DNA of 64,000 nucleotides from contig NZ_VTOW01000003.1 of the NCBI RefSeq assembly GCF_012184425.1, positions 372,001-436,000 on the forward strand. Direction: 5' to 3'. Below the pieces are notes generated by a model. It worked only from the letters and a program-made list of their open reading frames with translations, was not told where the DNA came from and did no database searches. This DNA is from Candidatus Manganitrophus noduliformans (GTDB taxonomy: Bacteria > Nitrospirota > Nitrospiria > SBBL01 > Manganitrophaceae). Every line of letters starts with the position of its first letter. Position 1 is the first letter of the stretch. Of the stretch, positions 3,977 through 21,389 are shown piece by piece. Position numbers and translations under genes: made by a program.

Positions 3977-4023
3977 GCCGCCTCATTAAGAGGAGGGCAC
4001 AGTTCATCGGGGTGGATAAAAAG

Positions 4024-4272
4024 ATGCGAGCAAAAATTTATATTACGTTGAAGAGCGGAATCCTCGACCCGCAGGGAAAGGCGATCGAGCATGCCCTTTC
4101 CGTGCTCGGCTTTAAGGGGGTCAAAGAGGCGCGGGTCGGAAAGTATATGGAGCTGGTTCTGGCTCCAGGTCCGATCGATCAAGTGGAGAAAAGCATCAAG
4201 GAGATGTGCGAGAAACTCCTCGCCAATACGGTGATCGAAACATACCGGTACGAACTCGATCCGAAGGAATAG
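4024..4272 (+). CDS. purS: PurS, formylglycinamidine ribonucleotide synthase small subunit
   Basis: PurS is the small scaffold subunit of the PurS-PurQ-PurL complex that converts FGAR to FGAM. The 82 residues MRAKIYITLKSGILDPQGKA.. KGVKEARVGKYMEL.. match the family from start to end. I chose ATG 4024 because the protein then begins at the conserved first strand; the frame is open further upstream, but that part overlaps purB and is not PurS-like. A GGGGTGG stretch 9 nt upstream may serve as ribosome binding site. Its partners purQ and purL lie 16 kb downstream, beyond the chemosensory genes. Confidence 0.93.
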   Translation: MRAKIYITLKSGILDPQGKAIEHALSVLGFKGVKEARVGKYMELVLAPGPIDQVEKSIKEMCEKLLANTVIETYRYELDPKE

Positions 4273-4282
4273 GTGATTCACC

Positions 4283-5458
4283 ATGAGCCTCGAAGGGCGC
4301 CTGGAAGATCTCGGCCTGGCCGATATTTTTCAAATCATCAGCTTAAGCAAGCGATCCGGGGTATTGACGATCATCCGGAAAGAGGGAACCGGGCGTCTTG
4401 TTTTTAATCGCGGCATGCTGATTTATGGGAGTTCCGACAGCGTCAGCCGGCTTGGTTATACCTTGGTGAAGAAGGGGCTGGTCACGACGGAGGAGCTTGA
4501 AAAAGCGCTGCGGCTCCAGAAAACGGGGGGAATGAAGCTGCCGGTGGGGGCCATTCTGGAAAAGACCGGCGCGATCGCGAAGGGGGTGCTCGAGGAGGAG
4601 CTTCGGAATCATCTTGTGGAGGTGGTGCGCGATTTTCTCAATTGGGAGAGCGGATCGTTTCATTTCGAACTGGGAGATCCGGTTGCGAACGACTTGACGC
4701 TGGAGGAAGGGCTCAACCTTGATTTCTTGATGATGGAGGCGAGCCGACGCCAGGATGAATATGAGCGCACCCAGGCGGAACAGCAGAATACCCTTCCGCC
4801 GGCACCGGAAAACGAGGCTTCCGGCGCCGAAGCAACCGTCCCCCCTGGAGGAACTTCGGAAGGGGGCTTGCCTTCTCTTGAGGACAGTCAAGGAGCCGCT
4901 GCGAATGCGCCGGAAAAAACGACATACCGAAAAGATCTTGCGTTACTCACCTCGATGATCGAAGAGCTTTCCGGTCCGGCGAGCGGAAGCGAAATCACCC
5001 TTCTTGTCCTTCGGTTCGCAAGCGAGGTGATGAACCGCGCCATCATCTTTCTCGTCCGGAGCGACGATATCTTGGGCTTGGGTCAATTCGGCCTTCAGGT
5101 CAGGGACGAATCGGCCGATGAGAAGATCCGGGAGGTCCAGATCCCTCTGAATGAGCCGTCCCTTTTTCGAGAGGTGATTGCAAAGAAGAGTAGTTATAAA
5201 GGGGGCCTGGCGCAGGAGAAGTGGCATCGCTACTTTCTCGACCAAATCGGAGGGGGATGGCCGAAAGAGGTCTTTCTCGCCCCGCTCTTGAACGGTTCGG
5301 AGGTCATCGCCCTTCTTTATGGGGATAACCTTCCGCACCAGACGCCGATTCCGGAGACGGAGGGGTTGGAGGCGTTTGTCCGGGTGGCCGGTTTTGCTTT
5401 CGGAAAGGCGAAGCTGGAGCGAAAACTACAGGAAACAAAGCAAAAAGGGCCCGGCTGA
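4283..5458 (+). CDS. DUF4388 (PATAN) protein with C-terminal GAF-like region
   Basis: The N-terminal 110 residues are a DUF4388/PATAN domain: LEGRLEDLGLADIFQIISLS, SGVLTII, GRLVFNRGMLIYG, then GYTLVKKGLVTTEELEKAL. Such domains accompany response regulators in signalling proteins of deltaproteobacteria, cyanobacteria and Nitrospirota. A low-complexity Pro/Glu/Ala linker (about 160-215) leads to a second folded region (215-385) that looks GAF-like but lacks a clear ligand motif. The gene starts 10 bp after purS and is the first of the chemosensory cluster. A role in protein-protein interaction with the receivers is inferred from context. Confidence 0.8.
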   Translation: MSLEGRLEDLGLADIFQIISLSKRSGVLTIIRKEGTGRLVFNRGMLIYGSSDSVSRLGYTLVKKGLVTTEELEKALRLQKTGGMKLPVGAILEKTGAIAKGVLEEELRNHLVEVVRDFLNWESGSFHFELGDPVANDLTLEEGLNLDFLMMEASRRQDEYERTQAEQQNTLPPAPENEASGAEATVPPGGTSEGGLPSLEDSQGAAANAPEKTTYRKDLALLTSMIEELSGPASGSEITLLVLRFASEVMNRAIIFLVRSDDILGLGQFGLQVRDESADEKIREVQIPLNEPSLFREVIAKKSSYKGGLAQEKWHRYFLDQIGGGWPKEVFLAPLLNGSEVIALLYGDNLPHQTPIPETEGLEAFVRVAGFAFGKAKLERKLQETKQKGPG

Positions 5459-5500
5459 TCGGGCGTCGGTTTTATCGGAAGGGATGGGTCTGGAGGAGAG

Positions 5501-5875
5501 GTGAAGAAAAAAGTGCTTGTGGTGGATGATTCGGCAACCATGCGCTCGCTTCTGGTCTCGACCCTGGAGGAGATCGACGGGATTGAAACGGTTCAGGCGA
5601 GCAACGGGTTTGAAGCGCTGAAAGCGCTTCCGATGCAGTCTTTCGATCTGGTTTTGACCGACATCAATATGCCGGAGATCAACGGCCTCGAAATCGTCCA
5701 TTTCATCAAGAATAATGAAACCTATCGGAATATTCCACTGGTCATTGTTTCAACGGAGCATGGCCAAGCGGATATCCAGAAAGGCTTGGCGTTGGGCGCC
5801 CAGAAATATATCACGAAGCCGTTTGACCCCGAGCAAGTAAAGAGGACGGTGAAGGAGCTTCTGAACGTAAAGTAG
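5501..5875 (+). CDS. CheY-like single-domain response regulator
   Basis: This 124-residue receiver has all phosphorylation residues: Asp9/Asp10 (VVDDSATMR), phospho-acceptor Asp54 (TDINMPEINGLE), Ser84/Thr85 and Lys106 (ITKPF). Start is GTG 5501 with a strong GGAGGAGAG just upstream. It ends 8 bp before cheA, so it is the likely direct phosphoryl acceptor. Whether it acts on a motor, pilus or another target cannot be told; no flagellar gene is in the window. Confidence 0.93.
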   Translation: MKKKVLVVDDSATMRSLLVSTLEEIDGIETVQASNGFEALKALPMQSFDLVLTDINMPEINGLEIVHFIKNNETYRNIPLVIVSTEHGQADIQKGLALGAQKYITKPFDPEQVKRTVKELLNVK

Positions 5876-5883
5876 GGAGAGCC

Positions 5884-7971
5884 ATGGCCGAGAAGGGAAG
5901 CGATCCAGCCTTGGATGATTTTGTTCCGGAAGCGGAAGAGCTCATCGAGGTGCTCCATCAAAATCTCCGGCAGATTGAAACATTGCCCGATCGGACGCAG
6001 GTGCGCCCCGATGTGATCAACGCGATCTTTCGCGCCGCGCATACGCTCAAGGGGATGTCCGGAATGATCGGCCTGAGCCGGGTCTCCCAAGTGAGCCATC
6101 ACCTTGAGGATATGCTCGACAAGCTTCGGATGGGGAAACTGACCTTTTCCGCCGAGATTTTCAATGTCCTGATTGACGGGGTCGACCTGCTCCAGAAGAT
6201 GATCGAGTCTGCGGCCCAAGGAAAAGGAGAGCCCGAGATCTCTCAGATGGAGGAGCGGATCCAGGCCGCTTTGAGCGGAAAACCGCAAGAAGGTGGGGCG
6301 AACCAGCTCGACGGCGTCGATCTCGATCCTTCCATTTTAAACGTTCTCACCGAATACGAAAGCCATCGCCTTTTTGAGAACATCAAGTCGAATGCGACCC
6401 TTTTTGAGGTGAAGGCCCGGTTCAAGCTGGAGACATTCGATACCGATCTCTCTTCATTGAACGAAAAGATCCAGAGAATGGGGGAGATCATTACCACCCT
6501 TCCGAGCATCAGCCCCTCCCCGGAGGGGGGGATGGAGTTCAACCTCATTGTCGGCCTTCCCCCGGAGAGCGCCCCGCTCGGTTCCGAGATTGTCTCCAAT
6601 CAGGTGACGATTCGCGAGATTCAAAGGAAAGGAAAGAAGGGGGAAAGCCCGGTCCCTTCGAAGCCGGAGGCGATGGCGCCTGTTCCTTTGCCTTCGGAAG
6701 GGCCTTCCAACCCGGCCCCTCCCTCCTCGCTTTCTCCTCAGGAAGGGGCGTCCCTTCGAAGCATGGCGCAAACGGTCCGGGTCGATATTCAAAAGCTCGA
6801 TGTTCTGCTCAACATGGTTGGAGAGCTCGTTCTGAGCAAGGCGGTCGTCAGCCAGATCAGCAAAGAGCTTTTGGAGCAATCGGGCTTCTCCGGATTGTCC
6901 TTGGAGCTGCTGAAGGCATCGAGGATGCTCGACAAGCGGATCAGCGAGTTTCAGGAGAAGCTCGTTGAGGTGCGAATGATCCCGATCGGGCAAATCTTCG
7001 ACCGTCTGGTCCGGACGGTCCGAAGGCTTTCGAGAGATTTAAATAAAGAGGTCAATCTCATGGTCTCCGGAGAAGAGACCAAGATGGATAAATCGATGGT
7101 GGAAGATCTGGCCGATCCCCTCCTTCATCTTATCCGAAATGCGCTCGACCACGGAATTGAAAGCCGTGAGGAGAGGATCAAGGCACAGAAGCCGGAGGTC
7201 GGCACGATTCATCTTCGCGCGATTCAGAAGGGAAACCACATCGTCATTGAAGTGGAGGACGACGGCGGAGGAATCGATGCCGATCGGATCTATAAGAAAG
7301 CCAAACAGAAGGGGCTGATCGATCCGGCAAAAAAGTACAGCGAGGGAGAGCTGACCCATTTCCTGTTCCTCCCCGGGTTCTCGACGGCCGAACAGGTCAC
7401 GGAGATTTCCGGAAGAGGGGTGGGACTCGATGTGGTCGCGAAGAATATCGCGAAGCTCTCCGGGCTGGTCGATGTCGAAACGACGTTGGGAAGAGGGACC
7501 CTTTTTACGATCACCTTGCCGATCACGTTGATTATCATCAAGGCGTTGATTGTCCGGGTTGGGATGGAAACATTCGCCGTTCCCTTGAATTCCGTTTCGG
7601 AGAGCTTGATGATTTCCTCCAAGGAGATCAAGACCATCGAGCGAAAAGAGGTGGTCCAACTGAGGGACCATACCCTCTCATTGGTTCGGTTGAATGACCT
7701 CTTCGAGCTGGGTGAGGGGAAGGCGGCGGATGACCGGCTTTATGTGATCGTCGTCGGCCTGGCGGAGAAGCGGATCGGTCTCGTGGTCGATGCCGTCGAA
7801 GGCCAGCAGGAGATCGTGATCAAGTCCCTCGGGGGATTGTTAAAAGATGCTCCGGGGATTTCAGGCGCGACCGAACTTGGAAACCGCAAGACGATTTTGG
7901 TCCTGGATGTCGCCTCTTTAATCGACGAGGCGACCCTTGGGAAAGAGAAGAAAGTCGAGATCGCCGGATAA
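5884..7971 (+). CDS. cheA: CheA, chemotaxis histidine kinase
   Basis: The domains in order are: HPt (P1) at about 10-125 with phospho-His53 in FRAAHTLKGMSGMIG; a divergent P2-like region at 145-245; a Pro-rich linker; dimerisation P3 (VRVDIQKLDVLLNMVGELV); ATPase P4 with the N box HLIRNALDHGIES, G1 DDGGGID and G2 GRGVGLDVV; and a CheW-like P5 at about 555-690. At 695 residues it is full length. All catalytic motifs are intact, so it should be an active kinase. It lies between a CheY-like receiver and, after a 375 bp gap, a MerR-like gene and cheW. Confidence 0.97.
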   Translation: MAEKGSDPALDDFVPEAEELIEVLHQNLRQIETLPDRTQVRPDVINAIFRAAHTLKGMSGMIGLSRVSQVSHHLEDMLDKLRMGKLTFSAEIFNVLIDGVDLLQKMIESAAQGKGEPEISQMEERIQAALSGKPQEGGANQLDGVDLDPSILNVLTEYESHRLFENIKSNATLFEVKARFKLETFDTDLSSLNEKIQRMGEIITTLPSISPSPEGGMEFNLIVGLPPESAPLGSEIVSNQVTIREIQRKGKKGESPVPSKPEAMAPVPLPSEGPSNPAPPSSLSPQEGASLRSMAQTVRVDIQKLDVLLNMVGELVLSKAVVSQISKELLEQSGFSGLSLELLKASRMLDKRISEFQEKLVEVRMIPIGQIFDRLVRTVRRLSRDLNKEVNLMVSGEETKMDKSMVEDLADPLLHLIRNALDHGIESREERIKAQKPEVGTIHLRAIQKGNHIVIEVEDDGGGIDADRIYKKAKQKGLIDPAKKYSEGELTHFLFLPGFSTAEQVTEISGRGVGLDVVAKNIAKLSGLVDVETTLGRGTLFTITLPITLIIIKALIVRVGMETFAVPLNSVSESLMISSKEIKTIERKEVVQLRDHTLSLVRLNDLFELGEGKAADDRLYVIVVGLAEKRIGLVVDAVEGQQEIVIKSLGGLLKDAPGISGATELGNRKTILVLDVASLIDEATLGKEKKVEIAG

Positions 7972-8262
7972 CCTGGCCATTTCCGATTCGAAATGTTCAC
8001 GTAGTCATTCCTTAAAGCAAAAACACCTCCCTTACAGCAATCTGAATCAAAACCTGCCGATCCGTTCCGATCGTCCTATCCGCTAGGTCTTACCATGTCA
8101 CAAGGATGTGGTTTGTCGGATGCCGTTTTTTGTTAGACGACCGTGAATGAAGTTACATATTTGGGATAATACCGTTTGGTGGGACAAAAGCGGGATGTGG
8201 AAGAGTATGTTTACGCAGAGGATTTTAGAGACGAATCCGTTCAAGATAGAGGCATACGACTT

Positions 8263-8274
8263 GCAGTTAACTGC
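8263..8274. promoter_or_regulatory. 12-bp perfect palindrome upstream of the MerR-like gene
   Basis: GCAGTTAACTGC is a perfect palindrome 72 bp upstream of the MerR-like gene and 6 bp before a second inverted repeat. It may be an operator; this is inference from symmetry and position only. Confidence 0.35.
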
Positions 8275-8280
8275 TCTTAA

Positions 8281-8300
8281 ATCCCACAACCCTGTGGGAT
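8281..8300. promoter_or_regulatory. Inverted repeat ATCCCACA-N4-TGTGGGAT upstream of the MerR-like gene
   Basis: A perfect 8-bp inverted repeat with a 4-nt spacer lies 46 bp before the start of the MerR-like gene. It has no T-tract, so a terminator is unlikely. MerR-type proteins bind dyads in their own promoters, so an autoregulatory operator is a reasonable guess. Confidence 0.4.
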
Positions 8301-8346
8301 GTGATTCTGAGCTGGTATGTTCGAAGAGTGAGGGGCCGTTCCATCA

Positions 8347-8634
8347 ATGGAAGATTCCATTCCGAAACAACTCGGACCGAAAGAGATCTGCGGCTTGCTG
8401 AACCTTTCACATCGGCAGCTCGACTATTGGGTTTTGATCGGCGTGGTCCGGCCCATTCTGGAGCCGCATGGGAAAAAGGTATTCAAGCGGTTTACCGACG
8501 ATGATTTTTATTTCTTGAAAGAGGTCAAGGCGCTTACGGATGAGGGCTTTCTGGTCAGCAAGGCGGCGCAGAAGGTGCGAGAGAGTTGGTCCAAGCGGAT
8601 AAGGCAAAATGGCCAAGAAGAGTCGGCAAAATAA
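8347..8634 (+). CDS. Small MerR-like helix-turn-helix protein
   Basis: The 95 residues carry a MerR-type winged-helix domain: GPKEICGLLNLSHRQLDYWVLIGVV, a wing segment (KVFKRFTDDDFYFLKEVKALTDEGF) and a helix with SKAAQKV. There is no effector domain and no long dimerisation helix, so it is a minimal DNA-binding protein. The gene sits within the chemosensory cluster and its 3' end overlaps the cheW start by 26 bp, indicating coupling. It could connect the chemosensory pathway with transcription, or simply regulate the cluster. No ligand or target can be inferred. Confidence 0.75.
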   Translation: MEDSIPKQLGPKEICGLLNLSHRQLDYWVLIGVVRPILEPHGKKVFKRFTDDDFYFLKEVKALTDEGFLVSKAAQKVRESWSKRIRQNGQEESAK

Positions 8635-9295
8635 ACCCGCTCGGCGGATGTCAAAAGAACGGCAGGCGTTCCCAGAGATGAAGTGCGCTCCCGAGGCGCA
8701 GGAAGCGGTTGAAGCCGGAGAGGGTTTGATCGGTTCGGAATCGGTTGCGACGGAAGCGGAAGCACCCCCCCCTTCGTCTCCGATGCCGGTCTCTTCTTCC
8801 GAGGAGGTGCCCCCCGACGCGGTTGAAACGGCGCCGTCGATGGAAGAAGAGGGGTCGGAAGTCGTTTCTGAAGAGCGGGAGTTGCTCACGTTCAATCTTG
8901 CGGATGAAGAGTATGCGGTGGATATCGGACTGATTCAGGAAATCACGAAATTGACCGAAATTACGCTTATTCCGCGCATTCAGTCTTACATCAGAGGCAT
9001 TATCACCTTGAGAGGCAATGTGATTCCCGTTTTTGATATGCGCGCCAGATTGGGGCTGGCCCCTTTCGTCAAGGAACCCAAAAACCGGTTCATCATCTGC
9101 GCCACCGAAAAAGGGATGGTGGCGATGTTGGTGGACCGCGTGAATGACGTTGTCCGGCTGATGAGACGTCATTTGGAGCCGACCCCGGCCGGGGTTGCCG
9201 CGATCGATGCCGGCTTTATCAAGAATATCGCAAGGCATGGGGACCGGCTTCTCATTCTCTTGGATATTGAAAAAACATTGCAGATCGACCGATAG
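8609..9295 (+). CDS. cheW: CheW-like adaptor with long acidic N-terminal extension
   Basis: Residues 92-225 form a CheW domain: ELLTFNLADEEYAVDIGLIQEI, the IIRGIITLRGNVIPV-type core (YIRGIITLRGNVIPVFDMR) and MLVDRVNDVVRL. About 90 residues rich in Glu, Ala and Pro precede it and are probably disordered. CheW joins MCPs to CheA. The ATG at 8609 overlaps the MerR-like gene. A later start would remove part of the extension, but no ribosome binding site favours one. The next gene is an MCP, as expected. Confidence 0.92.
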   Translation: MAKKSRQNKPARRMSKERQAFPEMKCAPEAQEAVEAGEGLIGSESVATEAEAPPPSSPMPVSSSEEVPPDAVETAPSMEEEGSEVVSEERELLTFNLADEEYAVDIGLIQEITKLTEITLIPRIQSYIRGIITLRGNVIPVFDMRARLGLAPFVKEPKNRFIICATEKGMVAMLVDRVNDVVRLMRRHLEPTPAGVAAIDAGFIKNIARHGDRLLILLDIEKTLQIDR

Positions 9296-9322
9296 AAAGA
9301 GGATGCGGGATAAGGAGTCATC

Positions 9323-11425
9323 ATGCAAGAGACGGATCAAACGAAACCCAATCGGGGATTGAAATTCAAGTTTTTGCTCGTCATCGGCTTGCTGCTGGGA
9401 ACGATGGGTTTTCTCATCGGCCTGACCTTGCTCATCGGGCTAAAGAGCTCCTTTGAAGGTCAGCTTCAAAAAAGAGGATTGGCCCTGGCGAGCGGCATCG
9501 CGAAGTTCGGCGCGCTTGCGGTGTCTGTCGAAGACCGGGCCGTGCTGGAGCAGATGATTCTCGGCCCCTCCCATGAATTGGATGTCGCATATATCGCCGT
9601 TTTGAACCACGAAGGAAAGGTCATCGTTCATTCGGATGAGAGAGAAAACGGGAAGACGTTGAATGATCCGCTCACCGCGCAAGCCGCGAAGACGTTACAA
9701 CCGACGATCTATCGTTATCAAAATGCGTCGGGACGCTATTTCGATGTCGTCGCGCCGGTTCACCTGGCGGCGATGCAGTCGCATGACGGTAAGAAGGTGG
9801 GGGTCATCCGCGTGGGACTTTCCTTGAGCGGAATCGAGTCGGAAATAAAGAGGCTGCTTCTGGTCACCCTTTCCATCCTCGGCGCGTTGATCGCCATCGG
9901 AATGTCCGTCTCATTGGTGTTCACACGGATCATCATCGCTCCCCTCGAACAAATGGCGGGGCTGGCCGTGAAGATCGCCGGCGGAGATTTCAGGCGACCG
10001 GTCGAGATAAAAACGCAGGATGAGGTGGGCGTCCTCGCCAATGCGTTGGGACAGATGTCGGACGGGCTGAAGGGAATGATTAAAAGAATTCAGGATACGT
10101 CTCAGCAGGTGACGACCGTGGCCGACAAAGTCATGGTCAATTCGCGCAGAATCAACGAAGGGGCCACGCACCAGGCGAAGGCGGCGGAGAAAACCTCGTC
10201 GTCCATTGAGGAGATGAATGCGTCGGTCAAAAACATCTCGGAGAACATCGACGGGCTTTCCACCTCCGCGGAGGCGACCTCTTCGTCGCTCATCGAAATG
10301 AGCGCGGCCATCAGTCAGGTGGCGACGAGCACCGTGACCCTTTCTTCATCGGTCGAAGACACCGCCTCCTCCCTGATTCAAATGTCGAGCTCCATCAAGC
10401 AGGTGGTCGAGCATATCGACGCGCTCTCGATGAACACGGTGGAGACGACCGCCTCGATCAATGAGGTCAACGCGTCGATCCGGGAGGTGGAGAAAAACGC
10501 GAAAGAGTCGGCCGTGATGACGGAGAAGGTGAGTCAGGATGCGACCGACTTGGGGATGGACGCGATCGAGAAAACGATCGAGGGGATGGAAAAAATAAAA
10601 CGAACGGTCGAAAAATCGGCCAGCGTGATCAATAAACTGGATGAACGGACGGAGCACATCGGGAAGATCCTCACCGTCATCGACGAAGTGACCCGGCAGA
10701 CCAATCTGCTTGCATTAAACGCCGCCATCCTGGCCGCCCAGGCCGGCGAGCAAGGGAAAGGGTTTACCGTGGTCGCGGATGAAATTAAGAACTTGGCCGA
10801 TCGGACGGCCTCTTCCACGAAAGAAATCGCGCAGTTGATTCGAGACGTGCAATCCGAGGCGAAAGATGCGGTGGTTTCGATCAACGAGGGGTCCCAAAGC
10901 GTCGAAGAAGGGGTCCGCCTCTCCGTCAATGCGCGCGAGTCGTTGAACAAGATTCTGGATGTCTCGAGACGCTCATCGAACATGTCGCGCCAGATTGAAA
11001 AAGCGACCTATGAACAGGTCCAAGCGATCAATCAGGTCAGTCAGGCGATGGAAAAGATGAACACGATGGTGCAGCAGATCAACCGGGCCATGCAGGAACA
11101 GGGGAGGGGAATCGAGCATATCACCGAGGCCTCGGAGAAAATGCGGGCGATTACGCGCCAGGTGAAGATCTCGACGGAAGAGCAGGCGAATGGAAGCAAA
11201 CAGATCAGCGATGCGGTCGAGGATGTCACGATACGGATACAGCAGATCGGCCGGGGAATGAGCGAGCATAAAAAAGGAAGTGAAGTGATCGTTAAATCGA
11301 TCCTGGAGATACACCAGATCACGCAAGTCAGCATGCAGATGGCGCAGCAGATGAATGAGGCGGTCGAAAGCCTCATCACACAAGCCAACATCTTAAAAGA
11401 AGAGATCAACCGATATAAAGTGTGA
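9323..11425 (+). CDS. Methyl-accepting chemotaxis protein
   Basis: Membrane segment 1 is at about 13-38 ([18 protein letters not shown]), then a periplasmic sensor of about 130 residues with a Cache-like look ([19 protein letters not shown]), membrane segment 2 at about 172-198, a HAMP domain, and a long coiled-coil cytoplasmic domain. The signalling tip reads [20 protein letters not shown]; compared with the canonical NAAVEAARAGE the Glu and Arg are replaced by Leu and Gln. There is no C-terminal NWETF-type tether for CheR. Length is 700 residues. The stop overlaps the following cheW by 4 bp. The ligand is unknown. Confidence 0.94.
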
Positions 11426-11976
11426 CGATCGACATGCCGCTGTTCAAAGAGACGAAAAAAGAAGAAAAGGTCAAGGCGGAAAAGAGAATCGTCCGCTTCA
11501 ACGCTTCAGGAATCGAATACGCGGTCTCCATCGAGCGGATCAAGGAGATTATTTATGCGAAGGAGGTCCATCCCCTGCCGGGGGCGCGGGAGGGGATCGA
11601 GGGGGTCATCAGCCTCAGGGGAGCCGTTGTTCCTGTCATTGACAGCAGGAAGAAACTCAAGGCGGCGGCGGTTCCGCCGGGTCCGCCGGAGCATATCCTG
11701 ATTGTCGAAGTGCGCCGACAGAAGATCGGGTTGATTGTCGATCGTGTGAATGAGGTCATAGCGGTGCGGGAAGATCAAATCCAAAGAACAGAGTCGTTCA
11801 TGGATCAAAACGCAGCGTATGTGGACGGAATTTACAGGGTGGGTGAGCGATTGATCGTGCTGTTGAATCTGGAGCGGTTATGGACTGCGGCCGAAACATC
11901 CGAGTTGGAGGCGACGCTCAGCCGGACGATTTCCAACGGCGCGGATCTCTCTCCTCAAAATAAGAGGAAGCAATGA
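11422..11976 (+). CDS. cheW: CheW-like adaptor (second copy)
   Basis: This 184-residue CheW protein lacks the long extension of the first copy. Core motifs are [40 protein letters not shown] and [14 protein letters not shown]. The GTG at 11422 gives a GTGA overlap with the MCP stop, mirroring the ATGA overlap at its own 3' end. An ATG at 11434 is the alternative start. It lies between the two MCPs, so each receptor is paired with its own CheW in gene order. Confidence 0.93.
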
Positions 11977-14195
11977 GACAACTCAAAGCCTACCTGGCGA
12001 ATCACCTCGAAATGAAGATCCTTGCGATCATCCTGACGTTTCTCGTCTGCGGATTCGGAATTCTCTATTACCTCCTTTCGGAGAGGATCGAAAAGTATTC
12101 GGTCTCTCAAACACATCAGAAATCCGAAATGCTCGCCTCCTCGATTCATCGGACATTGGATCGAAGCATGGTCAACTTTCGGGCCGATATCGCGCGCCAT
12201 ATTATCGAAGACTTGAAAGATATTCCCGGCATGGTTCGCATTCAAATCATTCGTGGAAAGACGGGAAACGGAACGGAAGAGGCTTTTCAGGATTTTATCA
12301 CCCTGGACGATGTCAAAACCCGCGCTCCGGGCGGGTTGAGGCCGGAATGGATCGGCAATCACCGGAACAAGGAGCACAATGTGGCCGATGGTGTCGATAC
12401 GCCGGAGTTTAAAGCGGCTTTCCAGGAATATGTTCAAGATCCGATGCAGCCGGACACCTATTATTTTGAAAAGATCGCCGATCAAAACGTCATGACCTAT
12501 CTGAAGCCGCTTCCGAACTTTGACCGCTGCTTCCTCTGCCATAATTCCGACCACAAGCTGCGGGGGGTGCTGATGATCTCCACCTCGATCGAAGGGATGC
12601 ACGCCGATATTCGGGATCAAAAGCGAAATCTCTTCGTCCTTTCGACGGCGACCCTCCTGATCACCGGATTTGCCCTGAAATTTTCGATGAGCCGGCTGGC
12701 GATGAAACCGCTCATCAAGGTATCGGAGCGGATTCAAGACATCGCCGGCGGGGAGGGAGATCTCTCCAAGCGGCTGGAGGTGAAGAGCAGCGATGAACTC
12801 GGAAAATTGGCGTCCGGGTTCAATCTCTTCGCCGAAAAGATGTCCAATTTGATCGCGCAAATCCTCACGGCGGCGAAGAATGTCTCCTCCACCTCGAGCG
12901 GCGTCATGGAAGGGAGCCGCGAGATCATGCAGGGGGCGGAAATTCAGATCAATGCGACCGAGGCGACCTCCGTCTCCATCGAGCAGATGAACAGCAGCAT
13001 CCGCAGCGTCGCCGAAACCAGCGAAAGCCTCGCCGGCGCATCGAAGGAAAGCGCCGGCGCGATCCAACAAATGACGTTCGCGATGGATGAGATTGCGAAA
13101 AATATGACGATCCTGAACACCTCGGTCGAAGACGCCTCCTCCTCGATTCTTTGGATGTCTTCTTCGGTCAAGAAGATCGATGAAAACGTGGAAACGCTCC
13201 TCGGAGAGGCGGAGGTCACCTCTTCCGCGATGATCCAGATGGATCAATCGCTCAACCAAATGCGCGAAAATGTGGACCAGACGGTTGACCTTTCGCGCGA
13301 GGTCAGCGTCAATGCCGACGCCGGAAAGAGAACGGTTGAAATGACGATGGACGGGATGACGCGGATCAAGGAATACTCGACCGAGGTCGGCCGGGTCATC
13401 CGCAATCTCCAGAAGCAGACGGAGAACATCGGCCGATTCTTGAATGTCATCGATGAGGTGGCCGAGCAGACGAATCTGCTGGCGCTGAATGCCGCCATCA
13501 TCGCCGCCCAGGCGGGCGAACATGGAAAGGGCTTCAGCGTGGTGGCGAATGAGATTAAGGAGTTGGCGGATCGGACGGCCGCATCGACGCACGAAATCCA
13601 TGAGATCATCAAGGCCCTCCAGTCCGAAGGGAAGATGGCGGTGGAGGCGATCGATGTCGGGAACGCCCGCGTCGAGGAGGGGGTGGTCCTCTCGAACTCG
13701 GCTCACGCGGCGCTCGGAAAAATCGTGGAGAGCATCAGTCATTCGACACAGAAGATCACCTTTGTGGCGAATACGATGGAAGAACAATCGAAGAGCGTGA
13801 AGCGGGTGACGACCTCCATGGAGCGGGTCAACCAAATGGTTCACCAAATCGCCAAGGCGACCAATGAGCAAAGCAAAGGCTCTGAACAGATCATCGAGGC
13901 CACTCACCGGATGAAGTCGATCACGCAGGGGCTTCAGTCCGTTTTATTGTCCCATTCGAAGGGAATGAAAAAAGTCACCGAGACGGTCGAGGAGGTCTCC
14001 CGCCTGGCCCAAGAGATCGCGAATGCGACGTCGGACCAAAAGGTCCAGAGCGAAGAGATTATGCACGCCATCGATCAGATCAAGAAGGTGACCCACGAAA
14101 ACGTCGACACCGTCGGAAAGGTCGGTTTTTCCGTCGAGGAACTGATGCGCCAAGCCAAGCAACTGGAAGCGGAAATATCGAGATTTAAGCTGTAA
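11973..14195 (+). CDS. Methyl-accepting chemotaxis protein with c-type heme (CxxCH) sensor
   Basis: Membrane segment 1 is at about 14-36, followed by a periplasmic domain of about 180 residues resembling the DUF3365/Tll0287-like heme sensors. Cys186-Phe-Leu-Cys189-His190 forms a CxxCH heme c motif in [18 protein letters not shown], just before membrane segment 2 (about 218-236). HAMP and a full signalling domain follow, with tip [20 protein letters not shown]. Covalent heme in this family is known from Geobacter MCP-type sensors; that this one senses redox state, oxygen or NO is inference. It overlaps cheW by 4 bp. Length is 740 residues. Confidence 0.93.
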
Positions 14196-14217
14196 GTCGG
14201 AAGGGAAGGAGCGGGGA

Positions 14218-15342
14218 ATGATTGTACAATGTCCAAAGTGTCAAACGGAACTCGCGCTCGACATGAAACATCTGGACGAGGATACCGCCTTGGTTTGCAG
14301 GGGATGCCGGTCCATTTTAAAAACAAAAATCGTCGTCGAAATCCTTGTGGAAAAAGGGGCGCACTCCTCCAAGAGCCCCTCCCCGCAAAATGAAGGAACG
14401 GCATCCCCGGAACGATCGAAGCCGGCGGAGACTCCGGCGAGAACGGTAGAAGCGCTCCAAGAAGACCCTCTTCCCGCCGCCGTCGATCCTCAAAAGGTGC
14501 TTGTCGCCATTGACGGAGAGGGGACCAAAGAGATGATCAAGGAGCTCCTTTCCGGGGCAAGCTTCAAGGTGGTCGAGGCCAACTCGGGAAAGGAAATTCT
14601 CCCTCTTCTAAACCAGCAGCGCCCCGCGATCGCGCTCATCGATGTTGGCCTGCCCGACGGTTTGGGGAGCGAATTCTGCAGCATGATCAAAAAAGACGAC
14701 CGGCTCAAGGAGACGATCGTCATCCTGATGGCCTCCATCTATGAGAAGAACAACAAATATCGGAGGCAACCGAGCTCCCTTTTCGGCGCCGACGATTATA
14801 TCGAACGCCATCATATCGAGAAGGATCTTCTCGTCAGGATCCGAAAACATTTGGATCGGAAGCAGAATGGCGATTCCCCCGCCGCGCCTCCTCGGCCGGC
14901 CGAAACCTCCAAGGATCCCTCCTTGAGAGAGACGTCGATGCCGTCCTTAGAGGAAACGGCCCGGACCCGGCGTCCCGAAATGGAGTCGATTCCACCGGCG
15001 ATCGATCAGGGAAGGACCCTGGACGTTGAGCAGTCCACCCGTCCTGCATTGGAAAAGGGTGTCCCTCCCCCCGCCGTGGAGCCGGGGTCTGAAAAGGCGC
15101 CGGAGCCGAAGGAGCACGAGGATGCCAGGCGTCTGGCGCGGATCATTGTTTCCGACATCGTTCTCTACAATAAAAAGAAGGTCGAAGAGGGGCTGCGTTC
15201 CAATCGGTTTTATGAATTGCTGAAAGAAGAGATCGAGGAGGGAAAAAAACATTATGATTCCAGGGTCCCTCCGGAAGTTCAAAAGGTGCGGGATTTCTAT
15301 AAAGAGGCCTTCGAAGATTTTATCAGGAAGAAAAAGGGCTGA
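14218..15342 (+). CDS. Zinc-finger response regulator (MJ0042-type finger + receiver)
   Basis: The N-terminus is a small zinc-finger-like motif with Cys5, Cys8, Cys27 and Cys30 (IVQCPKCQTELAL .. VCRGCRSIL), like the MJ0042/zinc-ribbon fingers found in deltaproteobacterial proteins. A receiver domain follows (about 95-220) with acceptor Asp142 in ALIDVGLPDG. The usual Lys-Pro near its end is replaced by DDYIERHH, so the switch residue Lys is missing. A Pro-rich linker (about 225-300) leads to a conserved-looking C-terminal helical segment (RLARIIVSDIVLYNKKKVEEGL). It is likely an output or scaffold protein of the pathway. Confidence 0.8.
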   Translation: MIVQCPKCQTELALDMKHLDEDTALVCRGCRSILKTKIVVEILVEKGAHSSKSPSPQNEGTASPERSKPAETPARTVEALQEDPLPAAVDPQKVLVAIDGEGTKEMIKELLSGASFKVVEANSGKEILPLLNQQRPAIALIDVGLPDGLGSEFCSMIKKDDRLKETIVILMASIYEKNNKYRRQPSSLFGADDYIERHHIEKDLLVRIRKHLDRKQNGDSPAAPPRPAETSKDPSLRETSMPSLEETARTRRPEMESIPPAIDQGRTLDVEQSTRPALEKGVPPPAVEPGSEKAPEPKEHEDARRLARIIVSDIVLYNKKKVEEGLRSNRFYELLKEEIEEGKKHYDSRVPPEVQKVRDFYKEAFEDFIRKKKG

Positions 15343-15380
15343 TCGTCCGCCGGGCGGTTGATCGATCATTTCGGGTGTTC

Positions 15381-17423
15381 ATGCGATCTCTCCAAGAAGA
15401 TATTGCAAAACGTTTAACGAGTCCGGATGTAGAGGTGCGACTCTCCGCATTGAATGCGTTGGCCGGTCTTCCCGATGCCTCGGTCATCGACCCCGCCATC
15501 ACCGCGTTGGGCGATTCCGATTGGAGGGTTCGGAAAATGGCGGCCGCCATCCTGCTGGAGGGGGTCGATCGAAATCGGATCGTTCATCAACTGATCGACC
15601 GTCTCAGCGGAGAGAAGAATATCGGGATGCGGAATGCGGCGGTCGAGGTCTTTATTCAGTTCGGAAAGACCTCTGTCGATCCCCTCCTTTTTTCGCTTCG
15701 CCGCACCGATGACGAGGTCAAGAAGCTGATCATCGATACGCTGGGTGAAATCAAGGAGAGAAAGGCCGTCCCCCCCTTGGTGGCCCTCTTGTCGGATCAA
15801 AACGAGAATGTCGCCGCTTCGGCGGTCGAAGCGTTGGGAAAAATCGGAGATCCCGGGTCGGTCCCGCCGCTGTTGGAGATTTTAACGCGGGAGAACCCGC
15901 TTCTCGTCTTCTCGGCGGTCAAGGCCCTGGAGCAGATCGGCGATCCCCGTGCGGTGGGGCCGCTGATCGGCCTCCTCGCCAAGAATGCCTATAGACGGGT
16001 CGGCCTGGAAGCGCTCGGGGCGATGGGAGATATGCGTGTCTTGGAGGCGTTGACGGCCGCCCTTCAATCGGGCTCGAAGAGCATCCGCTGCTCCGCTCTG
16101 AAGGCAATCGCCGCATTGGAATCGAGACAATCGACGGCCGATCGAGACGTGATTCATCGCCGCGTGAAGGAGATTTACCAAGATCCGATCCGCGCTCTTC
16201 TCGACGATGCCGTTCAGGACGCCGACCCTTCTTTGAGGCGGGCTGCGATCCGTATGTACGGATGGGCGGCGGAGGCCCGAAGCGTTTCAATCCTTATTCC
16301 GCTGATCACCGGCGCGTGCCGGGAGGATGCGCTTTCTGCGCTGGTCGCGATCGGCAAGGAGAATGTCGCGCCGCTCATCGCCGGATTGTCCGCGCAGGAC
16401 GACGCCGTTCGGGAGGTCATGGCGACCGTCTTGGGAAGGGTCGGGGGGAGCCGGGTGGTTCCGGCCCTCTTGGAACTGTTGCAGGATCGCAGCGGCCATG
16501 TTCGCCAGGCCTCCGCGGCCGCCTTGGGAGAAGTCGGAGACCCCGAAACCATCGGCGCCCTGTTGCCCGTTCTTGCCGATGTTTACCCGAACGTACAGGA
16601 GAGCGCGGTCAAGGCGTTGTTGCAGATGAAGGAGGCGCTCCCCCGGGCGACGCTCCTCGATTATCTACGCCACGATTCTTCGGCGCTTCGCAGCAATGCC
16701 GCTTTTCTTCTGGGACGGGTAAAAGAGGAAAAAGCGATCGCCTCCCTGCTGTTCCTCCTCAGCGATCCCGAGCAGAGCGTTCGAAAAGCGGCGGTCGATG
16801 CCTTGGGTTGTTTCCATTCGCCGGAGGTGAGCCAACATATTCTCCTCGCTCTCGGTGATGAGTCTGCCGATGTCCGGCTGGCGGCGCTCAAGATTCTGGC
16901 GGGGGATGAGATCGGGCACCTTGCCAATCTGGCAGACACCCTGCATCCGCTTGTTCACGACGAGAACATCTGGGTTCGGTCGGCGATCCCTCCGATTCTG
17001 GCCCGGGTCGAGGAAGAAAAGGCGCGAACCCTCCTCCTCGAATTGCTCTCGGATCGGGTCGGCGCCGTGAAAATATCCACCCTTTCCGTTCTCGGCGAGC
17101 GTCGTGAAAAATGGGCGCTCCCGCTCCTTTTGGCCGAGACAAATAACCCCGACCTCGACGTAAAGAAAGCGGCCATTTTGGCTTTGGGTCTTCTGAACGA
17201 GCCCTCGGTGGTTCCGCTGCTCCAAAGTTTCTTGACCGATCTGAATTGGACCGTACGAGTGGCCTCGATTCAGGCCATCGGGCGGCTCCGTGATCGCTCG
17301 TCGATCCTTCGTCTGAAAGAGATGGCCGATTCCGATTCGGATCCGATGGTGCGTGAAACCGCCCGCCAGTGCCTCTCTCAAATAGAATCGGGGAGCGGAC
17401 CCATTTTGATGGGAAACGAATGA
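15381..17423 (+). CDS. HEAT-repeat protein of the chemosensory cluster
   Basis: The protein is almost entirely built of about 20 HEAT/PBS-lyase-type repeats of 30-32 residues, such as AVEALGKIGDPGSVPPLLEIL and ASAAALGEVGDPETIGALLPVL. It has no signal peptide or membrane segment. Such proteins act as binding scaffolds. The gene sits between the zinc-finger regulator and cheR, and its last codon overlaps cheR (ATGA), so it is co-translated with the pathway. Start could be ATG 15381 or the in-frame GTG at 15375; neither has a clear ribosome binding site. Confidence 0.88.
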   Translation: MRSLQEDIAKRLTSPDVEVRLSALNALAGLPDASVIDPAITALGDSDWRVRKMAAAILLEGVDRNRIVHQLIDRLSGEKNIGMRNAAVEVFIQFGKTSVDPLLFSLRRTDDEVKKLIIDTLGEIKERKAVPPLVALLSDQNENVAASAVEALGKIGDPGSVPPLLEILTRENPLLVFSAVKALEQIGDPRAVGPLIGLLAKNAYRRVGLEALGAMGDMRVLEALTAALQSGSKSIRCSALKAIAALESRQSTADRDVIHRRVKEIYQDPIRALLDDAVQDADPSLRRAAIRMYGWAAEARSVSILIPLITGACREDALSALVAIGKENVAPLIAGLSAQDDAVREVMATVLGRVGGSRVVPALLELLQDRSGHVRQASAAALGEVGDPETIGALLPVLADVYPNVQESAVKALLQMKEALPRATLLDYLRHDSSALRSNAAFLLGRVKEEKAIASLLFLLSDPEQSVRKAAVDALGCFHSPEVSQHILLALGDESADVRLAALKILAGDEIGHLANLADTLHPLVHDENIWVRSAIPPILARVEEEKARTLLLELLSDRVGAVKISTLSVLGERREKWALPLLLAETNNPDLDVKKAAILALGLLNEPSVVPLLQSFLTDLNWTVRVASIQAIGRLRDRSSILRLKEMADSDSDPMVRETARQCLSQIESGSGPILMGNE

Positions 17424-18280
17424 ATCCCTGCGAACAGCAGATTGTTCTGACCGATGAAGTTTTTCGGCTTCTTCGAGACATGATTTATGAGATCTCGGGG
17501 ATCTATTTCTCCGACGATTCGAAGTTCATCATGGAAAGCCGGTTGCAGCAGAGCGTCAAGCGGAGACAGTTCACTCATTTCCGTGACTACTATTATTTTT
17601 TAAAATACGACCTAAAAAGAGATGAGGAGCTGGCTTCTTTAATCGACATCGTCACCATCCATGAAACCTACTTCTTTCGCGAGAATCAGCAGCTTCAGAC
17701 GTTTAGCCAGGAGATCCTTCCGGAGCTGGCCCATATGGAGGAAAAAACAAAACAGTTGAAGATCTGGAGCGCGGGCTGCTCCACCGGCGAAGAGCCGTAT
17801 ACCCTCTCCATGTTGATCCTGGAAAGTCCGTTATTCCATGACTGGAGCGTTGAAATTTATGCCAGCGATATCAGCCAAAATGTCCTTCAGAGCGCGCGAC
17901 GCGGCATTTACCAGCCGACCTCCTTCCGTTCGACGGACCCCTATTTTCAAAAGAAGTATTTCACGAAAGAAACGGCCGGATTTAAAATCAACGATCGGGT
18001 AAAAAAAAATGTCACTTTTCTCCACCTGAACCTGAACGATCGGGAGAGATGGATTCTGCTTCCCGCAGTGAACGCGGTCTTCTGCAGGAATGTCATTATC
18101 TACTTTGACATGACCGCGAAGAGGCGGGTGATCGAGGGGTTTTACGGAAAGTTGAAAGAGGGGGGGTATCTCCTCCTCGGCCATTCCGAATCGTTGATGA
18201 ATCTTTCCACCCATTATGCGTTAAAACATTTCAAGAACGATCTTGTTTACCAAAAGCCGCTTCTCGCGAAACATGGATGA
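17420..18280 (+). CDS. cheR: CheR, MCP glutamate methyltransferase
   Basis: CheR methylates glutamates of MCPs using SAM. The helical N-terminal domain (MIYEISGIYFSDDSKFIMESRL, ETYFFRENQQL) is followed by the SAM-binding SAGCSTGEEPYTLSMLI and the motif NAVFCRNVIIYFD. Length is 286 residues from ATG 17420, which overlaps the HEAT gene stop. The frame is open upstream but that part lies inside the HEAT gene. No TPR extension is present. Confidence 0.96.
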   Translation: MNPCEQQIVLTDEVFRLLRDMIYEISGIYFSDDSKFIMESRLQQSVKRRQFTHFRDYYYFLKYDLKRDEELASLIDIVTIHETYFFRENQQLQTFSQEILPELAHMEEKTKQLKIWSAGCSTGEEPYTLSMLILESPLFHDWSVEIYASDISQNVLQSARRGIYQPTSFRSTDPYFQKKYFTKETAGFKINDRVKKNVTFLHLNLNDRERWILLPAVNAVFCRNVIIYFDMTAKRRVIEGFYGKLKEGGYLLLGHSESLMNLSTHYALKHFKNDLVYQKPLLAKHG

Positions 18281-18290
18281 GAGGAAAGAG

Positions 18291-19373
18291 ATGGAGAAAG
18301 GAAAGCTTCAACAAACGCCGATCAAACTCCTGATCGTTGATGATTCGCCGCTGTTTAGACAAATGATCAACGTCATTCTTCAGAAGTATCCCCACCTGGC
18401 TGTTGCGGGATTGGTGGAAAACGGCGAGAAGGCGATGCGGCTCGTCGTCGAGAAAAAACCCGATGTGATTCTCCTCGATCTGGAGATGCCCCATATCGAC
18501 GGATTTACGTTTCTTCGCTGGCTGATGGCCTATTATCCGACCTCGGTATTGGTCGTCTCCGCCCGATCCGACGGCTACACTGTTTTCAGGGCGCTGGAGC
18601 TGGGGGCGTGTGATTTCTATGGAAAACCCGAACCGAACGGAACGCTCCTGGAGCAGCCGGAGGCGCTCATCTCAAAAATCGAGACCCTTTCTAAAATTCC
18701 AAAGGAGAGCTTGTCAAAAAAATATTCCAAGCTCACCCGTTCCAAAAAACGGGTCGAGGTCTCTCTTCAGCCCCCCAAACAGAGAGAAGGCCTCTCCCGG
18801 CTCTTGGCGATCGGGGCATCGACGGGGGGGCCCCCCGCCCTGGTTGAAATCATCTCGAATCTCTCGGAGGATCTCCCCATTCCGGTTGTGATCTCCCAGC
18901 ATATGCCGCCCGGTTTCACCAAATCTTTTGCGGAGCGTCTGAATAAGTTGTCGCGCTTGCAGGTCTCGGAGGTCGGCGGGGGGGAGCCGCTGGAGGCCGG
19001 CCGGGTTTATATCGCCCCCGGCGGTTATCATCTTTTATTCGAAAAGATCGGCTCCCGGATTCATACTTGTCTGAAGGCGAAGGGAGAGACCGATCGATAC
19101 GCCCCCTCGGTCGATCTGATGATGATCTCCGCCGCGGAGTTCTTCAAGGATGGCGTCTACGGGGTGGTCCTGACCGGGATGGGGGACGATGGAAAGATCG
19201 GATTGAAGAAGGTAAAAGAAACGGGGGGGATCACGCTCGCGGAGTCGGAGGAGACGGCGGTTGTTTTTGGAATGCCGCGAGAAGCAATCCAAGCGGGGGT
19301 CGTCGATCAGGTTTTGCCGCTTCACAAGATTGCGGCGGAGATCACGCGGCATTACCGCCGTTTTCCAAAATAG
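18291..19373 (+). CDS. cheB: CheB, chemotaxis response regulator methylesterase
   Basis: The receiver domain (about 10-125; IVDDSPLFR, acceptor in ILLDLEMPHIDG) is joined by a linker to the methylesterase domain (about 170-358). The Ser-His-Asp triad is visible in ASTGGPPAL, ISQHMPPGFTKSF and LTGMGDDG. It reverses CheR methylation. ATG 18291 has AGGAAAG just upstream; an earlier ATG at 18273 overlaps cheR but lacks such a site. With CheR it gives this pathway an adaptation system. Confidence 0.96.
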   Translation: MEKGKLQQTPIKLLIVDDSPLFRQMINVILQKYPHLAVAGLVENGEKAMRLVVEKKPDVILLDLEMPHIDGFTFLRWLMAYYPTSVLVVSARSDGYTVFRALELGACDFYGKPEPNGTLLEQPEALISKIETLSKIPKESLSKKYSKLTRSKKRVEVSLQPPKQREGLSRLLAIGASTGGPPALVEIISNLSEDLPIPVVISQHMPPGFTKSFAERLNKLSRLQVSEVGGGEPLEAGRVYIAPGGYHLLFEKIGSRIHTCLKAKGETDRYAPSVDLMMISAAEFFKDGVYGVVLTGMGDDGKIGLKKVKETGGITLAESEETAVVFGMPREAIQAGVVDQVLPLHKIAAEITRHYRRFPK

Positions 19374-19375
19374 GG

Positions 19376-19405
19376 TTGGCGCTTTGAAATAGGCTGTGTT
19401 ATAAT
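19376..19405 (+). promoter_or_regulatory. Sigma-70-like promoter for the coiled-coil/GAF gene
   Basis: TTGGCG, an 18-nt spacer and TATAAT lie in the 66-bp gap after che[11 protein letters not shown] ribosome binding site follows before the start at 19440. This is an internal promoter that could express the GAF protein, CheY and purQLF apart from the upstream genes. Confidence 0.65.
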
Positions 19406-19439
19406 CCACAAGGCCTTCAAATCCGGAAGGAAATCGCTT

Positions 19440-20291
19440 ATGGAGCGAAGAGAAAACGAGATCGCGAAAAAGGCCGAAGAGTTCTTGAGGGTATTCAAGA
19501 AGGGGGAGGAATTCACTCAAGAATTGCTCAAGGAGAACGAGCGGCTCCGATATACGGTCCTCAAGCTCGAAGAGGAAAGGAACGGGTTGGTCCAGCTTTC
19601 CAATCCGGTTGAAGTAAAAGCGCTTCAGGAGCAGTTGGCCAAGGCTGAGGAAGAGCGCAATCGCCTGATCAACCGTTTTAAGGAGGTTGAAGAGGAAAAT
19701 AAGGGCTTCGCTTCAAAGTATTTGGAAGTGGAAGAGGAAAACAACAACCTCGCCAACCTCTATGTCGCCAGCAATCAGCTCCACTCGACCCTCGACTTCG
19801 AAGAGGTGCTTCGAATCATCATCGAAATCATGATCAACCTGGTCGGGGCGGAGCGGTTTGTGATCATGTTGCTGGATGAAGCCTCTGGCGTTCTCTCTAC
19901 CATCGCTTCAGAGGGGATGGAAGAGGGGACAATCCGCAAGGCCCGGATCGGCGAAGGGGTCATCGGCCGGGCGGTCCAGAGCGGCGAAAACTTCTTCGAA
20001 AGCGATTTAAGCGTGGGAAGCGTCGAAGGGGAGCCTCGTCCCATTGTTTGCATCCCGCTGAAAATCAAAGATCAAACGCTCGGCGTCATCGTCGTTTTTT
20101 CGCTCCTGGAGCAAAAGAAAAAGACATTGACCCACGTCGACAAAGAGCTTTTCACTATGTTGGCGGGGCATGCCGCCACGGCGGTTTTCAGCGCCAAACT
20201 TTATTCGCAATCGGCCAGAAAGTTATCAACGATTCAAGGTTTTATTGATCTGCTGAGCGGTCGAGAAGATTCCTGGGGGCAAAATGGCTGA
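19440..20291 (+). CDS. Coiled-coil GAF-domain protein
   Basis: Residues 1-115 are predicted coiled coil (heptad-rich, Glu/Lys/Leu: EENKGFASKYLEVEEENNN). A GAF domain follows (about 120-265), beginning STLDFEEVLRIIIEIMINLVGAERF and including GEGVIGRAVQSGE and RPIVCIPLKIKDQTLGVIVV. No catalytic domain is present, so it is probably a cytoplasmic sensory adaptor. It has its own promoter and overlaps the next CheY-like gene by 8 bp. The ligand is unknown. Confidence 0.87.
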   Translation: MERRENEIAKKAEEFLRVFKKGEEFTQELLKENERLRYTVLKLEEERNGLVQLSNPVEVKALQEQLAKAEEERNRLINRFKEVEEENKGFASKYLEVEEENNNLANLYVASNQLHSTLDFEEVLRIIIEIMINLVGAERFVIMLLDEASGVLSTIASEGMEEGTIRKARIGEGVIGRAVQSGENFFESDLSVGSVEGEPRPIVCIPLKIKDQTLGVIVVFSLLEQKKKTLTHVDKELFTMLAGHAATAVFSAKLYSQSARKLSTIQGFIDLLSGREDSWGQNG

Positions 20292-20661
20292 CATCCGTTT
20301 CCTCGTCGTCGAAGATTCGCCGACGATGCGTCAACTGATCACCTTCAGCTTGAAACGAATTCCGAACTCCAAGATCGTTGAGGCGAGCGACGGCGTCGAT
20401 GCCCTCAAGAAATTGAAGGAAAATCGATTCGATTTAATCGTTTCGGATATCAACATGCCGCTGATGGATGGGCTCAAGCTGGTCAGCATGATTCGAAGCG
20501 ATCCCGCCTATCGATCGACCCCGATTGTGATTGTCACGACGGAAGGCTCCCAAACCGACCGAGAAAAAGGGCTTGCCTTGGGCGCCAATGCCTACCTTTC
20601 CAAACCGATTCAAACCAACGAGCTTCTTAAGATTGTCAGGGATTTATTAAAAGCGGAATAG
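20284..20661 (+). CDS. CheY-like single-domain response regulator (second)
   Basis: This 125-residue receiver has Glu10/Asp11, acceptor Asp55 ([13 protein letters not shown]), Thr85/Thr86 and Lys107 (YLSKPI), all intact. It differs from the CheY-like protein at 5501-5875 but is of the same type. It overlaps the GAF gene by 8 bp and ends 14 bp before purQ, so it closes the chemosensory block on the same likely transcript as the purine genes. Confidence 0.93.
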
Positions 20662-20675
20662 AATTAGAGGATAGA

Positions 20676-21389
20676 ATGCGTTTCGGAATCGTTGTTTTTC
20701 CCGGGTCGAATTGCGACCAAGATTGTCATTACGTCACCGGTGGGATCCTGAAAGAGCCGACCACCTTCATCTGGCATAAGGAGACAAAAATTCCGGATGT
20801 GGATGCCCTGATTATTCCGGGGGGCTTCTCCTATGGAGATTATCTCCGCGCGGGGGCGATCGCCCGTTTCTCTCCGGTGATGAAGGGGGTGGTCGATTTC
20901 GCCGCGAAAGGGGGAATGGTTCTCGGGATCTGCAACGGATTTCAAATTTTGGTCGAGTCGGGGCTGCTTCCGGGAGCGCTCCGGCGGAACCGCTCCCTCA
21001 AGTTTATCTGCAAGCCGGTCTTCGTTCGGGTCGAAAACCATCAAACCCCGTTCACCTTGCTCTATCAACCGGGTCAGGTTCTCTCGCTTCCGATCGCACA
21101 CGCGGAAGGAAATTATTATATCGATCCCGCCGGGTTGGCGCGGTTGAAGGAGCGAAATCAGATCGTCTTCCGCTATGTTACGAAGGAAGGAGCGGTCTCG
21201 GATGAAGCAAACCCGAACGGCTCCGTCGACCAGATCGCCGGAATCTCCAATGAGGCGGGGAATGTCCTCGGCATGATGCCCCACCCGGAGCGCGTCGCCG
21301 ATCCCCTCCTTGGCGGCGAAGATGGGATCAAACTCTTTGAATCTCTCCGCCGCTCTCGCAGGGAGCGCGCTGCCCCCGTTATTCGTTAA
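20676..21389 (+). CDS. purQ: PurQ, formylglycinamidine ribonucleotide synthase glutaminase subunit
   Basis: A class I glutamine amidotransferase that supplies ammonia to PurL. The nucleophile Cys is in [12 protein letters not shown] and the catalytic His-Glu pair in [11 protein letters not shown]. The start [18 protein letters not shown] is typical. Length is 237 residues, with AGAGG-like upstream sequence. It belongs with purS, from which the chemosensory cluster separates it. Confidence 0.97.

Follow-up and report, generated by a model that had tools for sequence, protein, structure and literature searches.

A predicted heme c chemoreceptor with an invariant distal methionine in a conserved chemosensory operon of Candidatus Manganitrophus noduliformans

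A 64,000-nucleotide stretch of the Candidatus Manganitrophus noduliformans genome (contig NZ_VTOW01000003.1, positions 372,001 to 436,000; hereafter the window) encodes a methyl-accepting chemotaxis protein (MCP) with a CxxCH motif in its periplasmic part. Chemoreceptors with heme c are known as structures. The locus raises the question of whether this receptor carries a heme, what such a heme would sense, and which pathway and output it would serve. Its features are as follows (window positions).

11973 to 14195, + strand: MCP with predicted heme c, 740 aa (open reading frame)
11994 to 12083, + strand: first transmembrane helix (TM1), about residues 8-37 (hydropathy)
12078 to 12629, + strand: periplasmic sensor domain of the sCache_heme type, residues 36-219 (PF21563, PDB profile matches, AlphaFold2, Foldseek)
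12168 to 12170, + strand: Met66, predicted switchable distal heme ligand, equivalent to Met60 of GSU0935 (invariance, profile alignment)
12528 to 12542, + strand: CFLCH heme-attachment motif, residues 186-190, with His190 as predicted proximal ligand
12630 to 12686, + strand: second transmembrane helix (TM2), about residues 220-238 (hydropathy)
12687 to 12842, + strand: HAMP domain, residues 239-290 (PF00672)
12843 to 14192, + strand: cytoplasmic signalling hairpin of about 64 heptads (PF00015; arms of 220 and 230 residues)

The sequence-only reading had placed a CxxCH motif (Cys186 to His190) before the second membrane helix of an MCP, and the open reading frame, hydropathy, and HAMP and MCPsignal domains all agree with that description. 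CFLCH is the sole CxxCH in the protein, and the positions of the two membrane helices put it in the periplasm, about 30 residues ahead of TM2. There are three cysteines in total, one of which (Cys26) lies inside TM1, leaving Cys186 and Cys189 as the sole extramembrane cysteines. Chance is a poor explanation for the motif, because CxxCH arose in just 15 of 100,000 shuffles of the sequence and is invariant in relatives: in 19 of 19 homologues (24-100% identity), and in all 30 best-matching sensor domains of a phylum-wide search, a count that covers the best matches short of the weakest partial ones and in which seven repeat earlier sequences. A search of NCBIfam gave no equivalog for either MCP of the operon described below.

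The sensor belongs with the heme c sensors of GSU0935 (PDB 3b42) and GSU0582 (3b47) of Geobacter sulfurreducens (PF21563; 'sCache_heme'). Taken singly, the PF21563 (Mcp40H-20_sensor) match on residues 167-207 is borderline, at 25.5 bits, or 27.1 in a six-frame search, against a cut-off of 27. A PDB search with the single sensor sequence returned 3b47 (E = 0.002) and 3b42 (E = 0.015), and a profile of eight sensor relatives matched only 3b42 (E = 4e-9) and 3b47 (E = 1e-8) among 177,635 PDB sequences. An AlphaFold2 monomer of the sensor, built from 18 sequences of the window and related loci, has a mean pLDDT of 79.8, with a weaker middle (about residues 95-135), and Foldseek against the PDB ranks 3b42 first (E = 1e-6) and 3b47 fourth; the ranks between them go to sCache domains, WalK among them. 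TM-scores of the model against 3b42 and 3b47 are low (0.36-0.51), in part because the model is a monomer whereas the crystal chains are domain-swapped, and the fold evidence therefore rests on the ranking by E-value. As modelled, the sensor has a PAS/Cache fold nearest to GSU0935/GSU0582. It is about 45 residues longer than the Geobacter domains, and the extra segment has conserved positions of its own (F..F.T...V, W).

The earlier suggestion of a heme c sensor MCP of the Geobacter kind is thus supported by the profile and the fold, as well as by the invariant distal methionine and the complete cytochrome c maturation locus discussed next. The same reading had likened the domain to DUF3365/Tll0287 and proposed a structure prediction against such sensors; here a distant kinship is what survives, as the best structural match is 3b42/GSU0935 and the nearest family PF21563. 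Membership in PF11845 (DUF3365, Tll0287-like) was rejected, with the sensor scoring 12.6 bits against a cut-off of 24.1.

In GSU0935 the heme is attached to Cys140 and Cys143, with His144 as proximal ligand and, in a fraction of the molecules, Met60 as distal ligand; Met60 binds the heme on reduction and is displaced by CO or NO, and both Geobacter domains carry covalent heme c, change spin state upon reduction, and bind CO and NO (PMC8396549). The profile aligns Met66 of the window's receptor with chain residue 26 of 3b42, which is Met60 when counted back from His144. Because of this alignment, and because Met66 is as invariant as CxxCH (19 of 19 homologues and 30 of 30 best phylum-wide domains), we predict with some confidence a His/Met ligation of the redox-switchable kind, and not the His/Cys ligation of Tll0287. 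No periplasmic cysteine occurs in the heme MCP besides those of CxxCH, so that the distal Cys ligand of the Tll0287 type is absent. Attachment of the heme would fall to a Ccm system. The genome (5.17 Mb in 22 contigs, searched family by family for Ccm, MCP, CheA and flagellin) has in a row, on contig C4, ccmA, ccmB, ccmC, two ccmE-like genes, ccmF, a ccmG-like thioredoxin, ccmH and a ccmI-like TPR gene. A lack of maturation genes had been named as one observation that would refute a heme; with a complete locus this objection does not apply. The two CcmE-domain genes are adjacent, between ccmC and ccmF (L042:6154-7192). We infer that the periplasmic domain of this receptor carries covalent heme c.

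The heme MCP is the eighth of 14 genes in an operon flanked by purS and purQ/purL, all on one strand (window 4023-21389), in the order DUF4388-cheY-cheA-merR-cheW-MCP (sCache_3_2)-cheW-heme MCP-zinc-ribbon/receiver-HEAT-cheR-cheB-GAF-cheY. The other members are listed here.

4283 to 5458, + strand: DUF4388 (PATAN-like) protein, first operon gene (PF14332)
5501 to 5875, + strand: CheY-like receiver 1 (PF00072)
5884 to 7971, + strand: CheA, with Hpt, dimerisation, HATPase and CheW domains
8347 to 8634, + strand: MerR-type HTH protein, 95 aa (PF13411)
8609 to 9295, + strand: CheW 1
9323 to 11425, + strand: partner MCP with sCache_3_2 sensor, without CxxCH, of the same 64-heptad signalling length as the heme MCP
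11422 to 11976, + strand: CheW 2 (PF01584)
14218 to 15342, + strand: zinc-ribbon and receiver protein with a conserved C-terminal helical tail
15375 to 17423, + strand: HEAT-repeat protein (PF13646)
17369 to 18280, + strand: CheR
18243 to 19373, + strand: CheB
19440 to 20291, + strand: GAF-domain protein with N-terminal coiled coil
20284 to 20661, + strand: CheY-like receiver 2, last operon gene (purQ follows at 20676)

Four congeneric genomes share this order, as do members of three additional families, with an extra CheY-like gene in one family; the comparison includes relatives whose contigs end inside the operon. The heme MCP occupies the same slot in nine genomes besides the window's, from four Nitrospirota families, so the pairing with a HEAT/DUF4388 pathway that had been remarked on in the window alone proves to be a conserved arrangement. 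In several relatives from other families purQ also directly follows the operon. In one genome (G003; L032, 10446-15888) the heme MCP and HEAT genes are each broken by an apparent frameshift, perhaps a sequencing error. Literature searches for DUF4388 together with CheA and HEAT repeats found nothing relevant, and the single paper found to mention both Manganitrophus and chemotaxis does not deal with this operon.

A scan of the genome collection with the single sensor sequence returned one locus only, in Candidatus Manganitrophus GAC4 (Nitrospirota; 94% identity), and a sensor match at E <= 1e-8 was found in 57 of 296 Nitrospirota genomes. In one family (f16; L088, L089 and L090) the heme sensor occurs in open reading frames of about 290-300 aa with no in-frame signalling domain. 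The operon CheA is more widespread than the heme MCP. In one relative (G006; L044:8735-10492) the MCP in its place is present but has no periplasmic domain, and in two others (G019, L045; G021, L047) the heme MCP is wholly absent from the operon. Since the operon exists without the heme sensor in these relatives, heme input would not be essential to the pathway; judging from the genomes compared, the sensor is a common input that the pathway can do without. In the tree, the sensors encoded in the operon group together (94/94; 100/99 against the other labelled group), which is consistent with a single origin and later losses.

Which kinase the receptor serves is suggested by its length. The cytoplasmic parts of both operon MCPs comprise about 450 residues, or 64 heptads, a length found only in these two among the 10 measured of the 11 MCPs of the genome; the hairpin of the heme MCP fits 64.3 heptads, making it a candidate for class 64H. 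It has been argued that chemoreceptors of equal length class assemble into joint arrays (PMC2577667). Because the operon MCPs share a length class unique among those measured, the CheA and CheW of its own operon are the most likely partners of the heme MCP. In the mechanism that we propose, a single c-type heme would be held by the periplasmic sCache/PAS-like domain of a membrane chemoreceptor, attached by the Ccm machinery to Cys186 and Cys189; His190 would be the proximal ligand, and Met66 a distal ligand that can be exchanged. If the heme changes its redox state, or if NO or another small ligand displaces Met66, the sensor dimer would be altered, and this change would pass through TM2, HAMP and the 64-heptad hairpin to CheA/CheW, from where the two CheY-like proteins and the receiver, HEAT and DUF4388 proteins would carry it to an output, probably one other than the flagellar motor. 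Taken as a whole, we consider this explanation very probable.

The description of the cluster as non-motile-looking holds for the operon, which has no flagellar genes, but not for the genome, which encodes flagellins on contig C5 beside a separate CheA and five MCPs. It is this second locus that makes a non-flagellar output the more likely one for the 14-gene operon. One might still take the latter for a flagellar chemotaxis operon, and its heme MCP for an ordinary redox or aerotaxis receptor for swimming, given that flagellins are encoded and that the CheY-P of a given system can act on the motor irrespective of gene location. With another CheA and its five MCPs sharing a contig with the flagellins, and with HEAT, DUF4388 and zinc-ribbon/receiver proteins but no flagellar gene in the operon, we regard this as unlikely, and an output other than the flagellar motor as probable. 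In other bacteria, type IV pili have been connected with proteins of the DUF4388/PATAN type, and residues 56-107 of the operon's DUF4388 protein match the c-di-GMP-binding MshE-type motif NF053729 below threshold (32.7 bits; cut-off 38). Type IV pili are in the core genome of the Manganitrophus family (PMC9040806). Together these point toward surface attachment as leads, no more. The tail of the zinc-ribbon/receiver protein, about 80 residues long, conserved and helical, matches no Pfam family; it is a possible output module.

As for the signal, it is highly improbable that CxxCH binds no heme and reflects chance, a metal site or a disulfide, considering the invariance of both CxxCH and the distal methionine, homology to two heme c crystal structures, and the presence of Ccm genes. 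A heme that is present might yet be a structural or electron-transfer cofactor, while the signal is an ordinary ligand that binds at another place in the Cache domain, for which the extra segment of about 45 residues could hold a site; this seems quite unlikely when heme-attachment and distal-ligand residues are both invariant and the characterised relatives switch heme ligation with redox state. More weight attaches to the idea that the receptor is primarily an NO sensor, in which NO would bind tightly to the ferrous heme with loss of Met66, and the pathway would report NO. Among sCache_heme domains fused to signalling modules, NO binding is slowly reversible (koff 6e-4 per s) and O2 is not stably bound, and NO sensing has been assigned to them from one Pseudomonas protein (PMC12889525, a 2026 preprint); GSU0935 and GSU0582, moreover, bind NO in both redox states (PMC8396549). 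However, the NO-binding protein of the preprint has no reported Met ligand, whereas the ligand here is an invariant methionine, nitrification genes are reported absent from the family by comparative genomics (PMC9040806), and no NO-related gene was seen in the 14-gene operon. We view primary NO sensing as possible, if somewhat doubtful.

Our order of preference is the redox state of the periplasmic electron pool and then NO. Work on the Geobacter heme c MCPs stresses redox (PMC8396549), and a second heme c MCP of the genome bears on the group: a protein of 595 aa with CNACH and a sensor 39% identical, which stands first in an operon on contig C4 (about 241.3-247.5 kb; L040:3299-9510, minus strand), followed by genes for a heme protein of the EB_dh (ethylbenzene-dehydrogenase-like) type, a decaheme cytochrome of the DmsE family and an MtrB/PioB porin. 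Three more genomes (G003, L085; G013, L086; G095, L087) have these four genes in identical order, for three families in all. Since this paralogue heads a porin-cytochrome conduit operon, it mildly favours redox sensing for the group, and says nothing direct about the window's receptor. A third PF21563 match in the genome (contig C1, E = 0.4), weak and without CxxCH, was dropped.

This kind of sensor is already known, from crystal structures available since 2008 and from a 2026 family preprint that reports sCache_heme as enriched in Nitrospirota and fused to MCPs (PMC12889525). Like the heme MCP, GSU0935 and GSU0582 have a periplasmic PAS/Cache-like domain between the two transmembrane helices of an MCP and CxxCH before TM2, and GSU0935 has its distal methionine on the N-terminal helix at the same alignment position. 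They differ in the shorter sensor, in a Pfam family named for class 40H in place of a hairpin of about 64 heptads, and in that the gene studied here is located inside a che operon. The sCache_heme family (DUF3365/Tll0287 and relatives, PMC12889525) likewise fuses a heme c Cache domain to a signalling module, although the distal ligand of Tll0287 is Cys and the one predicted here Met. DcrA of Desulfovibrio vulgaris (PMC8396549), likened by description, is also an MCP with periplasmic c-type heme and a proposed redox/oxygen sensor, but has an additional cytoplasmic PAS domain. Also by description, the Esn system and the delta-proteobacterial beta-group (PMC5585712, PMC2577667) resemble the operon in having cheA, cheB, cheR and cheW clusters apart from flagellar genes, with outputs proposed in biofilm/extracellular matrix and c-di-GMP; in contrast to the 14-gene operon, mcp genes are missing from beta-group clusters, and EsnA lacks a periplasmic domain. 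What is new is the fixed operon with its natural sensor-less versions, the phylum-wide invariant distal methionine, the greater length of both sensor and receptor, and a paralogue encoded within a porin-cytochrome operon, none of which we found described in the searchable literature, a limited set.

The Manganitrophus group are Mn(II)-oxidising chemolithoautotrophs (PMC9040806). It is tempting to speculate, though we think it less likely than not by a good way, that heme c chemoreceptors of Nitrospirota gauge extracellular electron transfer, one with a porin-decaheme conduit and the other feeding periplasmic redox state to a dedicated long-receptor (64H) array, through which manganese- or metal-oxidising cells would control pili, attachment to surfaces or c-di-GMP. 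Because the receptor is fixed in an operon that also encodes a CheA, CheW, partner receptor and outputs of its own, and has relatives with and without the heme sensor, an assignment of input to output becomes possible; in organisms living on Mn(II), a periplasmic redox sensor on a chemosensory pathway, together with a conduit-linked paralogue, would offer a direct way to learn how cells find or hold a mineral.
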